From Rubrivivax sp. (GTDB taxonomy: Bacteria; Pseudomonadota; Gammaproteobacteria; Burkholderiales; Burkholderiaceae_C), in contig JAHCKS010000046.1 in NCBI GenBank assembly GCA_026125665.1, positions 1 to 36,851 on the forward strand: DNA of 36,851 nucleotides. Reading direction: 5' to 3'. The translations under genes were made by a program, and so were the position numbers. This document shows, one piece after another, positions 1 through 25,896 of the stretch. The notes under the pieces were generated by a model that worked only from the letters and a program-made list of their open reading frames with translations, made no database searches and was not told the origin of the DNA. The number at the start of each line of letters is the position of its first letter. The stretch's first letter is position 1.

Positions 1-2487
<2,487 letters not shown>

Positions 2488-22438: not shown

Positions 22439-22637
22439 AAGAGAACCGACGGGCCCCTGGGCTGATCAGGCCAACCTCCTCAGCGGAAGTTGAAGGTATT
22501 GCACCAGAGCACCGTGGCGGTTGCCAGCCGACGGGCCGGAAAAGCGGCGGGGATGTTGTCTGGCAACAACGGGAAACATCGGCCCCCCGTGAGAACCCCG
22601 ACCCGGCGGGGTGGCCGGCACAAGGCGGGTTCTGGGC

Positions 22638-22643
22638 TATCCT
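22638..22643 (+). promoter_or_regulatory. -10-like TATCCT in front of coq7
   Basis: TATCCT ends 8 nt before the coq7 ATG, so transcription would begin at or next to the start codon. Only a weak GGA lies between. No clear -35. Confidence 0.3.
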
Positions 22644-22651
22644 GGATTGAC

Positions 22652-23284
22652 ATGAATGCGATGGATCGCCTGCTCTCCGCGGCCGATGCCGCCTTGCGCA
22701 CCGTGGCCGGCAGCGCGCACAGCGCTCGCCCTTATCCGGCCGCGGCGATGCCCCTGGCCGACGAGGCGCTCGATGCGTCGGCCCGCCGCGTGAGCGGCGC
22801 GCTCATGCGCGTGAACCATGTCGGTGAAGTGTGTGCGCAGGCGCTCTATCAGGCGCAGGCGCTGACGGCTCGCAGCGAGCCCTTGCGCCGCCAGATGGAG
22901 CAGGCGGCGCGCGACGAGACCGACCACCTGGCATGGACCGAGCAGCGCCTGCGCGAGCTCGGCGACCGTGCGAGCCTGCTGAACCCGTTGTGGTACGCGG
23001 GCGCCTTCGGCATCGGCCTCGTGGCCGGTCGCATCGGCGATGCGCTGAGCCTGGGGTTCGTCGTCGAGACCGAACGCCAGGTGGAAGAACACCTCGCCGG
23101 CCACCTGGGGCGCCTTCCAGAGGCGGACCAGCGTTCGCGCGCCATCGTCGCGCAGATGAAGGAAGACGAGCGCCGTCACGCGGACGAGGCGTTTGCCGCC
23201 GGGGCGCGTGCGCTGCCGCTGCCGGTTCGCGGGCTGATGCGGCTGGCGGCACGCGTCATGACGGGCACCGCCCACTACGTCTGA
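22652..23284 (+). CDS. coq7: Demethoxyubiquinone hydroxylase (Coq7 family)
   Basis: Membrane-associated di-iron monooxygenase that hydroxylates 2-polyprenyl-3-methyl-6-methoxy-1,4-benzoquinone in ubiquinone synthesis. 210 residues. The iron ligands fit the Coq7 pattern: Glu in [15 protein letters not shown], ExxH-like DETDHLAW, Glu in [17 protein letters not shown], and [10 protein letters not shown]. The hydrophobic segment [23 protein letters not shown] is the membrane-binding helix region. The first 50 residues are less conserved. The ATG at 22652 was chosen because the -10-like element sits just before it and the family starts here. Confidence 0.94.
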
Positions 23285-23555: not shown

Positions 23556-23978
23556 TCAGGCCTCGACGACCTCGACGCTCGTCTCGACCTTCGCCGTCTT
23601 CAGCAGCATGGCGGTCGCCGAGCAGTACTTCTCGTGCGACAGCGCCACGGCCCGTTCGACGGCCGCCACCGGCAGGGCGCGCCCGCTCACCGTGAAGTGC
23701 ATGCGGATGTGCGTGAAGACCTTCGGGTCCTCGCTCGCCCGTTCGGCGTCGAGCTTGACGCGGCAGCCGCGCACGTCGTGCCGGCCGCGCTTGAGGATCA
23801 GCACCACGTCATAGGCGGAGCAGCCGCCGGCGCCTGCCAGCAGCGTCTCCATCGGGCGAGGTGCGAGGTTGCGGCCGCCGCCATCGGGCGAGCCGTCCAT
23901 CGTCAGCACATGGCCGCTGCCCGTCTCGGCCACGAACCCCATGCCCAGGCCCGTGGCCCAATGCACCGTGCATTCCAT
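23556..23978 (-). CDS. OsmC/Ohr family protein (YhfA-like)
   Basis: A 140-residue OsmC-fold protein. This family includes thiol peroxidases for organic hydroperoxides. The two reactive cysteines expected of the fold are present in LLAGAGGCSAYDVVLILKR and HEKYCSATAMLL; an extra Cys lies in DVRGCRVKL. MDGSPDGGGRNLAPRPMETLL matches the YhfA-like subgroup, whose role is not settled, so no gene symbol is given. The ATG at 23978 has AAGGGG about 10 nt upstream; the frame is open further (a second Met at about 24038), but the family starts at this point. Convergent with coq7 and divergent from the putative sRNA. Confidence 0.88.
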   Translation of the reverse strand: MECTVHWATGLGMGFVAETGSGHVLTMDGSPDGGGRNLAPRPMETLLAGAGGCSAYDVVLILKRGRHDVRGCRVKLDAERASEDPKVFTHIRMHFTVSGRALPVAAVERAVALSHEKYCSATAMLLKTAKVETSVEVVEA

Positions 23979-24039
23979 TCCGCTCACCCCTTCACTGCCC
24001 AAGCGCCCCGATCGAACCGCGGATGTTGCATCCGACATA

Positions 24040-24067
24040 TTGCACCGCAGCAAACGAGTGATAGACT
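24040..24067 (+). promoter_or_regulatory. Candidate promoter of the putative sRNA
   Basis: TTGCAC (24040-24045) and TAGACT (24062-24067) are 16 bp apart in a locally AT-rich stretch that also holds a small dyad GGATG-TTG-CATCC (24021-24033). Predicted transcription start is about 24074. Confidence 0.4.
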
Positions 24068-24073
24068 GCGCCG

Positions 24074-24167
24074 CAAGGATGCTTCGAGCGTGGCATCCGC
24101 CGATTGTCTCCTCCACCTCCAACAAGGGTGGTTCAAGGCCCGAGCCGCGAGGTTCGGGCCTTTTTTT
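24074..24167 (+). ncRNA. Putative trans-acting small RNA with anti-Shine-Dalgarno tract
   Basis: A stand-alone transcription unit of about 93 nt is suggested by a promoter-like pair upstream and a strong intrinsic terminator at the end, with no gene of the same strand in the 790 bp before it. Predicted structure: hairpin 1 with a perfect stem GGATGC (24077-24082) / GCATCC (24093-24098); a pyrimidine-rich linker ATTGTCTCCTCCACCTCC (about 24103-24120), which carries repeated complements of the Shine-Dalgarno sequence; a possible short pairing CCACC/GGTGG; then the terminator with seven T, a typical Hfq-binding tail. This layout is that of trans-acting sRNAs that mask ribosome-binding sites. A translation of the same stretch (MLRAWHPPIV...) shows no run of regulatory codons, which argues against an ilvA leader peptide. 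The exact 5' end is a guess. Confidence 0.6.
24135..24167 (+). terminator. Strong intrinsic terminator (sRNA 3' end)
   Basis: AAGGCCCGA (24135-24143) and TCGGGCCTT (24154-24162) form a perfect 9-bp stem with a 10-nt loop, running into a T7 tract (24161-24167). This is the clearest intrinsic terminator of the window. Confidence 0.9.
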
Positions 24168-24218
24168 GCCCCGTTGCGGTGCGTCGGGCGACCTGGTGGC
24201 ACCCGCCGGGCGCGCGCC

Positions 24219-24224
24219 TATGAT
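24219..24224 (+). promoter_or_regulatory. -10-like TATGAT upstream of ilvA
   Basis: TATGAT lies past the sRNA terminator and about 80 bp before the ilvA start codon. It supports a promoter for ilvA separate from the sRNA. No clear -35. Confidence 0.35.
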
Positions 24225-24303
24225 CCCCGCCCCGTGCCACTGCCGCGCACGCCAAGGCCGGCGTGCGTGAGCGCACCACCATCGCCCCGCGAAGCCCGCA
24301 TCC

Positions 24304-25896
24304 GTGCCGACCCGTTCCACGTCCCGTGCCGACACCGCCGATGGAGTCGGCCCGCCGCCGCCACTCACGCCCAAGGCGCGGCGCATCGCCGCGGCCTACC
24401 TGCAGCGCATCCTGACCGCCCGCGTCTACGACGTGGCACGCGAGACCGCCCTCGAGCCGGCGCGTGCGCTGTCGCGACGCCTGGGCAACCACGTCCTGCT
24501 CAAGCGCGAGGACCAGCAGCCGGTCTTCAGCTTCAAGCTGCGCGGTGCCTACAACAAGATGGCGCGGCTGGATGCGCAGGCGCTGGCGCGCGGCGTCATC
24601 TGCGCGTCGGCCGGCAACCACGCGCAGGGCGTCGCGCTGGCCGCGCGGCGGCTGTCGTGCCGCGCCGTCGTCGTGATGCCGGTGACGACGCCCAAGCTGA
24701 AGGTCGATGCGGTGCATGCGCTCGGCGGCGAGGTGGTGCTGCAAGGCGACAGCTATTCCGACGCCTACGCGCATGCGCTGCAGCTGCAGGCGAAGCAGCG
24801 CCTCACCTTCGTGCACCCGTTCGACGACCCCGACGTCATCGCCGGCCAGGGCACGGTGGGCATGGAGATCCTGCGCCAGCACCAGGGAGCGCTCGACGCG
24901 GTGTTCGTGGCCATCGGCGGTGGCGGGCTTGCCGCCGGTGTCGCCGCCTACGTGAAGGCGCTGCGCCCGGAGGTGAAGGTGATCGGCGTGCAGACGGTGG
25001 ACTCCGACGCGATGATCCGCTCCGTCAGGGGCGGCCGGCGGGTCGTGCTCGGCGACGTCGGCCTGTTCTCCGACGGCACGGCGGTCAAGCAGGTCGGGGG
25101 CGAGACCTACCGCATCGTGCGCGAACTGGTCGACGACTTCGTCGCCGTGGACACCGACGCCGCCTGCGCGGCGATCAAGGACGTCTTCCAGGACACGCGC
25201 AGCGTGCTCGAGCCGGCCGGCGCCATCGCGGTGGCGGCGATCAAGCAGTACGCGGAGGCGCACAAGCTCAAGGGCCGCACCTTCGTGGCCGTGACCAGCG
25301 GTGCGAACATGAACTTCGACCGCCTGCGCTTCGTCGCCGAGCGGGCCGAGGTCGGCGAGCACCGCGAGGCGCTCTTCGCGATCACCGTGCCAGAGGAACG
25401 CGGCTCGTTCCGCCGCTTCTGCGAGCTCATCGGCCCGCGCTCGGTGACCGAGTTCAACTACCGCATCAGCGACGAGCGCGTCGCGCACCTCTTCGTGGGC
25501 CTGACGATCAGCCGGCGCGACGAGGCCGGACGCATCGCGCGCCACTTCGACCGGCACGGCTTCGCCACCGTCAACCTCACCGACGACGAGCTCGCCAAGG
25601 AGCACGTGCGGCACATGGTGGGCGGGCGCAGCGAGCTGGCGCGTGACGAGCGCCTGTTCCGCTTCGAGTTCCCCGAGCGGCCTGGCGCACTGATGCGCTT
25701 CCTCGCCGCGATGCACCCGGGCTGGAACATCAGCCTCTTCCACTACCGCAACCAGGGTGCCGACTCCGGCCGCGTGCTCGTGGGGCTGCAGGTGCCCGCA
25801 GCCGACGACCGCGCCTTCGCCGGGTTCCTGCGCACGCTCGCGTACCCCTTCGTCGAGGAGACGGACAACCCGGTGTACCGTCTGTTCCTGCGCTGA
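24304..25896 (+). CDS. ilvA: Threonine ammonia-lyase, biosynthetic
   Basis: PLP enzyme that deaminates threonine to 2-oxobutanoate, the first committed step of isoleucine synthesis. 530 residues, the length of the long, feedback-regulated form. The PLP lysine is Lys78 in FSFKLRGAYNKM; CASAGNHAQGVALAA and AIGGGGLAAGVAAYV (phosphate loop) follow. Two ACT-like regulatory domains are visible at the C-terminus, beginning near EALFAITVPEERGSFRRFC and RLFRFEFPERPGALMRFLA; in the family they bind isoleucine and valine. The GTG at 24304 is the first start in the open frame, with a poor ribosome-binding site. The gene is preceded by the terminator at 24135-24167 and followed 36 bp later by the CobT-like gene. 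Confidence 0.95.
   Translation: MPTRSTSRADTADGVGPPPPLTPKARRIAAAYLQRILTARVYDVARETALEPARALSRRLGNHVLLKREDQQPVFSFKLRGAYNKMARLDAQALARGVICASAGNHAQGVALAARRLSCRAVVVMPVTTPKLKVDAVHALGGEVVLQGDSYSDAYAHALQLQAKQRLTFVHPFDDPDVIAGQGTVGMEILRQHQGALDAVFVAIGGGGLAAGVAAYVKALRPEVKVIGVQTVDSDAMIRSVRGGRRVVLGDVGLFSDGTAVKQVGGETYRIVRELVDDFVAVDTDAACAAIKDVFQDTRSVLEPAGAIAVAAIKQYAEAHKLKGRTFVAVTSGANMNFDRLRFVAERAEVGEHREALFAITVPEERGSFRRFCELIGPRSVTEFNYRISDERVAHLFVGLTISRRDEAGRIARHFDRHGFATVNLTDDELAKEHVRHMVGGRSELARDERLFRFEFPERPGALMRFLAAMHPGWNISLFHYRNQGADSGRVLVGLQVPAADDRAFAGFLRTLAYPFVEETDNPVYRLFLR

Follow-up and report, generated by a model that had tools for sequence, protein, structure and literature searches.

The sRNA family RF02278 (Betaproteobacteria toxic sRNA) was reportedly discovered through its effect on Escherichia coli. 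The Bordetella pertussis RNA S17, which its authors place close to the RF02278 "toxic sRNAs", adjoins coq7 and is transcribed from a promoter with the -35 element TTGCAT and a 17-nt spacer (PMC11722255). S17 is described as Hfq-dependent, and a cut by RNase E at the start of its CU tract yields a 67-nt form. Target repression proceeds through Site 1 at the 5′ end, as compensatory mutations indicate, with the long form repressing less (PMC11722255). Growth inhibition of E. coli is reported for relatives; the short form, S17S, causes only a modest slowing at entry into stationary phase (PMC11722255). Burkholderia cenocepacia has four RF02278 "double-hairpin" RNAs that are strongly expressed in biofilms; levels are raised in glucose medium for each of the three that were measured, and cells overexpressing ncS27 grow more slowly (PMC5688073).

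PhaR of Ralstonia eutropha, for which a 2025 paper deduced the palindrome YTKNTGCRNYGCANMAR, acts as a repressor of the phasin gene phaP1, and PHA granules draw it off as they grow (PMC12849132). The riboregulation of PHB in Cupriavidus necator was called undeciphered in a 2021 review (PMC8401924). A literature search, covering articles without their supplements, found no paper that links RF02278 with PhaR, phasin or phaC, and no co-mention of "toxic small RNA" and "phasin" in the searched texts; neither "phasin" nor "polyhydroxy" occurs in the main text on S17 (PMC11722255).

Here we describe an RF02278 double-hairpin sRNA encoded in a 36,851-nt stretch of Rubrivivax sp. DNA (the window). Three computed observations are new: a PhaR-like box at the sRNA promoter, diverged copies linked to phasin genes, and complementarity to phaC. 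From these sequence comparisons we consider it likely that the sRNA has a PhaR-operated promoter and feeds back on PHB synthesis and carbon use.

Results

An RF02278 sRNA at a conserved coq7-osmC-ilvA locus

The locus comprises the following features:

22490..23284, + strand: coq7 (ubiquinone biosynthesis), first codon uncertain; Pfam COQ7, 147 bits; marks the locus that also holds Bordetella S17 (PMC11722255)
23556..23978, - strand: OsmC-family gene, divergent from the sRNA; Pfam OsmC, 65.8 bits
24075..24167, + strand: predicted full-length sRNA of about 93 nt; start inferred 7 nt past the -10, end at the T-run; fold z -4.27
24105..24167, + strand: RF02278 core, the predicted processed form of 63 nt; cmscan match; fold z -4.52
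24219..24224, + strand: TATGAT, likely the ilvA -10, 3′ of the sRNA terminator; found by promoter scan, with the same hexamer in other loci of the family
24304..25896, + strand: ilvA-type threonine dehydratase; Pfam PALP and Thr_dehydrat_C

The original prediction, made from the letters of the window, was of an independent sRNA that acts in trans through an exposed anti-Shine-Dalgarno tract and might already be an Rfam family. Both suppositions are supported. A cmscan search matched RF02278 over the full model length at 24105-24167 on the + strand (51.6 bits, gathering score 50, E 1.1e-7), the sole match in the whole window above a curated threshold. The window copy has the UGUCUCC start, the two hairpins and the U-rich end of the family, and the sRNA region folds more stably than shuffled sequences (z -4.1 to -4.5). 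Both the RF02278 membership and the independent role in trans can be taken as firm. As an RNA the sRNA is not new, RF02278 being the family of Bordetella S17 and the Burkholderia NcS27 double-hairpin RNAs. The strand was also correctly said to be free of genes for 790 bp upstream: about 790 bp separate the end of coq7 (23284) from the predicted start.

Several other candidates were set aside. Further Rfam matches at the sRNA site (AgvB, ncS037, Pseudomon-1/ErsA, anti-hemB) lay far under their own thresholds. A leader peptide was discarded, the frame with the leader ATG running without a stop before the terminator (ORF 23869-24270). The RNA ncS35 was dropped as a Burkholderia relative, no Rfam match being reported for it in the available text of the ncS35 paper.

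Within the window's family, 104 of 120 genomes have an RF02278 match at E <=0.001, and in 82 it lies above the cut-off. All 136 places were examined. At 98 of them the sRNA adjoins osmC and/or ilvA as in the window (class A); another 17 are found no more than 400 nt past a phasin gene (class B), and the remaining 21 have other surroundings (class C). The flanks as fetched gave matches to both osmC and ilvA at 86 class A loci and to coq7 at 82. At the order level RF02278 was matched in 80 of 120 genomes. Either osmC or coq7 lay within 450 nt at 23 of the 69 other-family loci examined, osmC lay farther off at six, and 40 had neither neighbor. The coq7 neighborhood of the window is that expected of an S17/NcS27 orthologue, S17 itself adjoining coq7 (PMC11722255).

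Some matches stand apart from this pattern. Two genomes of one other family (G126 and G174; L280 is among their loci) hold nine and eight RF02278 matches, the most in the order-level list, and two of those in G126 are about 400 nt apart. Records titled as Singulisphaera, Methylotenera and Bordetella parapertussis MAGs (L204, L184 and L170) carry the same coq7-osmC-sRNA-ilvA locus and are probably mis-binned or mis-named Burkholderiales contigs. Four weak RF02278 matches (L053, L063, L064 and L065; 30-33 bits) consist of a short GUCUCCU and a terminator, 23-222 nt after one type of ORF, whose C-terminus we take to be that of the ammonium transporter AmtB.

In most of the family ilvA follows the element directly and in the same orientation, and the 3′ end of the element is a terminator, as would hold for an ilvA leader whose hairpins and terminator respond to isoleucine supply. 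We regard such an attenuator as extremely improbable. It would always be linked to ilvA, with no separate ilvA promoter past the terminator. TATGAT is present within 150 nt past the terminator at 38 of 90 family loci (at 21 of the first 51, against a shuffle mean of 0.49 and maximum of 3), and none of the 69 order-level loci has an ilvA match in the fetched flank. The RF02278 match likewise argues for a stand-alone sRNA, as does the finding that the best-kept part of the element is the anti-Shine-Dalgarno tract.

Structure and seed

Folding and alignment gave the following elements of the transcript:

24077..24098, + strand: 5′ leader hairpin; from the fold, position kept in relatives
24104..24105, + strand: putative RNase E cleavage point, placed by comparison with S17, whose short form S17S starts at a T near the start of the C/U-rich loop (PMC11722255)
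24105..24114, + strand: Site 1 seed UGUCUCCUCC, with complementarity to GGAGGAGACA ribosome-binding sites; the fold of the processed form leaves its first 8 nt unpaired
24113..24131, + strand: hairpin 1, with a second CU-rich stretch, CACCUCC, diverging from the family loop; from fold, alignment and covariation
24135..24167, + strand: Rho-independent terminator; terminator scan, with 9 of 11 helix-2 pairs covarying

The terminator helix (24135-24162) has 12 pairs including one G-U; its outer nine are Watson-Crick and T7 follows at 24161-24167, in agreement with the perfect 9-bp terminator originally described. A single site of this kind is about what chance would give in 3.2 kb (mean 1.0) in the terminator scan. 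In the covariance analysis, a check that had been proposed, the named structure was paired in 96.8% of cells versus 83.7% after shuffling, with 74 doubly changed cells versus 19.0, almost all of them in the terminator helix. Ten pairs covary, nine of them in the terminator and one in hairpin 1, so that covariation speaks mainly for the terminator, and hairpin 1 rests on invariance. The stem of this middle hairpin, which had been overlooked, pairs 24113-24118 with 24126-24131. Its loop is CUCCAAC in the window and in the genus mate L091, versus CUCCUCC in most relatives; thus over the 27-nt 5′ region that spans Sites 1 and 2, Site 1 is kept, and the loop has diverged in these two copies from the Rfam consensus and the relatives.

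The C/U-rich tract had been described as 18 pyrimidines holding CTCCTCC and CCTCC. Both motifs are present (24108-24114 and 24116-24120), but the run is 14 nt long (24107-24120) and is interrupted by one A at 24115. The seed UGUCUCCU occurs in 97 of the 98 class A copies. Their first ten letters are UGUCUCCUCC in 88, UGUCUCCUCU in eight and UGUCUCCUCA in one, and the seed is broken in one (L068). The first 11 alignment columns, UGUCUCCUCCA, are invariant in 31 copies, a figure that overstates invariance because the alignment consists of the window and the 30 best-scoring copies.

A 5′ hairpin, predicted at 6 bp, is found at 24077-24098 with seven pairs, but its stability alone (-11.5 kcal/mol, z -1.86) was equaled in 12 of 200 shuffles. 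Among predicted leaders drawn from the first 57 class A loci, 43 of 47 have at least five consecutive pairs (mean z -1.34). The leader hairpin is weak evidence on its own, kept in position and not in sequence. In the fold of the full-length RNA (24074-24167) the leader partly pairs with the CU seed, an arrangement that could keep the precursor less active before cleavage.

A PhaR-operator-like box over the sRNA promoter

Upstream of the predicted start lie three elements:

24037..24053, + strand: PhaR-operator-like palindrome ATATTGCACCGCAGCAA, over the -35; two mismatches to the published YTKNTGCRNYGCANMAR
24040..24045, + strand: -35 TTGCAC; from sequence, near-fixed spacing recurring in orthologues
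24062..24067, + strand: -10 TAGACT, after a 16-nt spacer; orthologues were searched for TANNNT, TACACT and TATACT being commonest

The promoter-like pair of the original prediction, TTGCAC-16-TAGACT, is present. It was absent from the output of a simple sigma-70 scan, which flagged only the ilvA promoter; what makes it credible is that relatives have the same arrangement. The palindrome had been overlooked. It overlaps the promoter and lies within the three mismatches to YTKNTGCRNYGCANMAR that we allowed, both of its mismatches falling in outer positions of the 17-mer; nucleotides 24041-24052 read TGCACCGCAGCA. The centre of the published palindrome, the 13-mer TTGYNNYGCARCA, is found with at most one mismatch in 87 of 96 class A upstream regions (shuffle mean 2.6, maximum 7), two class A loci with too little upstream sequence being omitted. 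The core TGCRNYGCA is found within 150 nt upstream at 89 of 96 (shuffle mean 4.7, maximum 10) and in the control region from -450 to -300 at 2 of 95; these and the other shuffle tests ignore relatedness among loci. In the first 57 class A loci, on which all spacing and leader counts are based, the core stands 12-14 nt from the sRNA -10 at 48 of 49 (search window 10-16). The first TANNNT after the 13-mer follows at 10 nt in 34, 9 nt in eight and 11 nt in three of the 50 boxed loci among the first 56.

In class A the box lies between osmC and the sRNA, and it could in principle be an operator of the divergent osmC that adjoins the sRNA by accident. We consider this very unlikely, given that the spacing from the core to the sRNA -10 is nearly fixed, whereas the estimated distance to the osmC start varies from 29 to 265, and that loci without an adjacent osmC also carry the box. 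The OsmC neighbor had been taken as a hint of a link to stress; nothing was found in support of this, and the conserved upstream element matches instead the operator of PhaR, a regulator of PHB storage.

Beyond the window's family, where osmC or coq7 lies within 450 nt, the core is present at 20 of 23 loci (mean 0.87, maximum 4; control region, 0 of 23) and at one of six with osmC about 1 kb upstream (21 of 29 combined). At L248, a coq7-linked locus of another family, the box holds a -35 TTGCAT, and a 17-nt spacer separates it from TATGAT, much as reported for P_S17. A gapped pattern of box, -10 and sRNA start matched at least 119 records in a scan of 84,980 species; having been built from family loci, it tests spread and place and not the motif itself. 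Among the matches listed, 115 are at the osmC/ilvA locus, and named hosts include Variovorax, Rubrivivax, Ideonella, Roseateles, Sphaerotilus, Polaromonas and Pandoraea. Of the other four listed, L140 (a cyanobacterial MAG) seems to be a chance match, L153 and L168 seem to be copies of the sRNA at other places, and the record of L224 ends near the match.

The same data might also describe an ordinary RF02278 sRNA that is not under PhaR control, with the box serving as a strong -35 region or binding a different regulator. We judge this unlikely, although likelier than the other alternatives. TTGCAN sits at the -35, so conservation of the box is partly conservation of a promoter. The box is missing from most loci outside the coq7/osmC/ilvA setting, being present at 4 of 20 class C loci and at 10 of 40 other-family loci with neither osmC nor coq7, and the available text of the Bordetella work names no repressor (PMC11722255). 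Against it, the conservation is palindromic and takes in the right half-site, GCARCA, beyond the -35; five other-family copies without an osmC neighbor (L274, L276, L278, L281 and L292) keep the box 37-38 nt before the RNA start; and the one perfect motif of the genome marks a phasin promoter.

In the window's own genome, sites with at most two mismatches to the 17-mer number 992 versus 726 for the reversed pattern, and the perfect 17-mer, with one site per strand versus two, is no commoner than its reversed control, so the window box counts only through its conservation and place. A PhaR gene is nearly universal, occurring in 117 of 120 family genomes including the window's own. Control of the sRNA promoter by PhaR is a prediction well supported by comparison.

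PhaR-like cores were also found past the sRNA terminator (+64 to +214 from the sRNA start) at 17 of 98 class A loci (mean 2.4, maximum 8), among them L003, L009, L019, L026, L030, L084, L086 and L089. Enrichment is thus not confined to the promoter, and these cores are perhaps a second operator near the ilvA promoter.

Diverged copies downstream of phasin genes

The window's own genome has one other RF02278 match, below the cut-off, which begins 123 nt past the stop codon of a phasin gene (Pfam Phasin_2, 106 bits):

L002:1499-1573 (contig C1:60782-60854), - strand: phasin-linked RF02278-like RNA; Phasin_2 neighbor, match of 31.2 bits

This copy shares the UUGUCUCCUC start with the window sRNA and has two hairpins (fold z -4.87). 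None of the 17 class B copies reaches the RF02278 cut-off, and the 16 genomes without a strong match contain four more phasin-linked copies, for a total of 21 (20 besides the window genome's own). The perfect PhaR 17-mer occurs in the genome (6.28 Mb, 88.6% complete) at one place, the promoter of this phasin; as the reversed pattern yields two per strand, it is the place of the site and not its number that speaks. A PhaR site with at most one mismatch lies upstream of 15 of the 17 phasins that have a downstream copy (mean 0.17, maximum 2). Directly before the class B RNAs themselves, a PhaR core was found in 0 of 17, which suggests that they are cut from the phasin mRNA. The phasin-linked RNA is probably a product of the 3′ end of that message.

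phaC as a candidate target

We searched the window's own genome for GGAGGAGAC followed within 2-10 nt by ATG and found ten sites; the reversed pattern gave none. One is the antisense of the sRNA itself. Others head the class I PHB synthase gene phaC, a FadB/FadJ-like enzyme, an FAD-dependent oxidoreductase, an ABC ATPase and a ketosteroid-isomerase-like protein, and the remainder head short or internal frames and are probably chance. PhaC is full-length and scores over its family cut-off. The FadB/FadJ-like label is the best family match, below the cut-off on a 501-aa fragment. The oxidoreductase is presumably an ETF-ubiquinone oxidoreductase; NCBIfam gives FAD-dependent oxidoreductase families only.

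Seed complementarity of at least 7 nt near a candidate phaC start was found in 38 of 60 genomes, with GGAGAC in 35. The corresponding counts were 17 of 353 and about 3 of 318 for control genes, which were drawn from the fetched loci and are not random genes, the 318-gene set repeating the same few neighbors. Up to seven start candidates were tried per gene, on average somewhat more for phaC than for controls. By gene, ORFs beside phaC (9 of 65, within the set of 353) stood above the other controls, and osmC and ilvA gave 8 of 54 and 5 of 50. The phaC duplex has a predicted energy of -23.0 kcal/mol, below all 58 background genes. No difference in the frequency of phaC pairing was found between genomes that have a strong RF02278 match and those that lack one (32/48 versus 6/12; Fisher p 0.23), the latter group being impure: four of the 16 genomes without one hold a phasin-linked copy, and three of these four are among the 12 compared. 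Hfq is present in the window's own genome. Taken as a target of the sRNA, phaC is a good prediction.

Discussion

The family membership, the conserved locus, the conserved box with its near-fixed spacing, the phasin-linked copies and the conserved phaC complementarity, all computed here, can be joined into a regulatory loop. When PHB is absent, PhaR would sit on the palindrome over the -35 and the sRNA would be off. Under carbon excess, the PHB granules that form would draw PhaR onto themselves, releasing the sRNA together with the phasin. RNase E would then cut the transcript of about 93 nt before UGUCUCC, leaving a 63-nt product held by Hfq, whose 5′ end would pair with GGAGGAGAC-type ribosome-binding sites and block translation. 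Through the predicted targets (phaC, the FadB/FadJ-like beta-oxidation enzyme, the FAD-dependent oxidoreductase and the ABC ATPase, among others) the sRNA would limit storage by negative feedback and restrain carbon use. The diverged copy downstream of the phasin gene, which probably derives from the 3′ end of that gene, would be a second source of this seed. RNase E processing, Hfq dependence, repression through Site 1 and repression of a phasin by PhaR are carried over from published work in relatives; PhaR binding at the window box, repression of phaC and the loop as a whole we infer.

A broader proposal, to which we give even odds, is that RF02278 is the riboregulatory arm of PHB storage in Burkholderiales. 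Titration of PhaR by granules would switch on both the stand-alone sRNA and the copy in the phasin mRNA, and their shared seed would silence the mRNAs of PHB synthase and of carbon uptake and catabolism. If true, this would name the repressor proposed for Bordetella P_S17 and explain why the double-hairpin RNAs accumulate in glucose medium. With the PhaR link, a widespread Burkholderiales family would gain stored carbon as its signal, a known repressor as its switch and phaC as a conserved candidate target. Each of these could be tested in ordinary bioplastic producers, in which control of PHB is of practical interest.

Among described systems, S17 shares with the window sRNA a coq7-linked locus, a factor-independent terminator and a -35 beginning TTGCA. 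The short form of the window sRNA, like that of S17 (67 nt), is predicted to begin near the start of the C/U-rich tract. The S17 long form is 190 nt and hence has a longer leader, and the 27-nt region called fully conserved in that work is not kept in the window, where the loop is CUCCAAC; the available text on S17 draws no link to PhaR (PMC11722255). NcS27/bdhR1, ncS03, ncS05 and ncS62 of B. cenocepacia are likewise RF02278 double hairpins with CU-rich anti-RBS stretches. NcS27 has a 92-nt form that is cut to a shorter one, as predicted for the window sRNA, and three copies have a common upstream motif that is unnamed in the text consulted (PMC5688073). The Neisseria NmsR sRNAs, a tandem pair aimed at TCA-cycle genes, also direct two CU-rich unpaired stretches at ribosome-binding sites (comparison in PMC5688073). 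MmgR of Sinorhizobium meliloti is an sRNA whose gene is repressed by PhaR/AniA through a palindrome in the promoter; it differs from the window sRNA in being alphaproteobacterial and in acting on phasin expression (PMC8401924, PMC12542648). The mmgR promoter site, tested by gel shift with binding listed as "Efficient", contains TGCACCGCAGCA, the same 12 letters as the window (PMC12542648).
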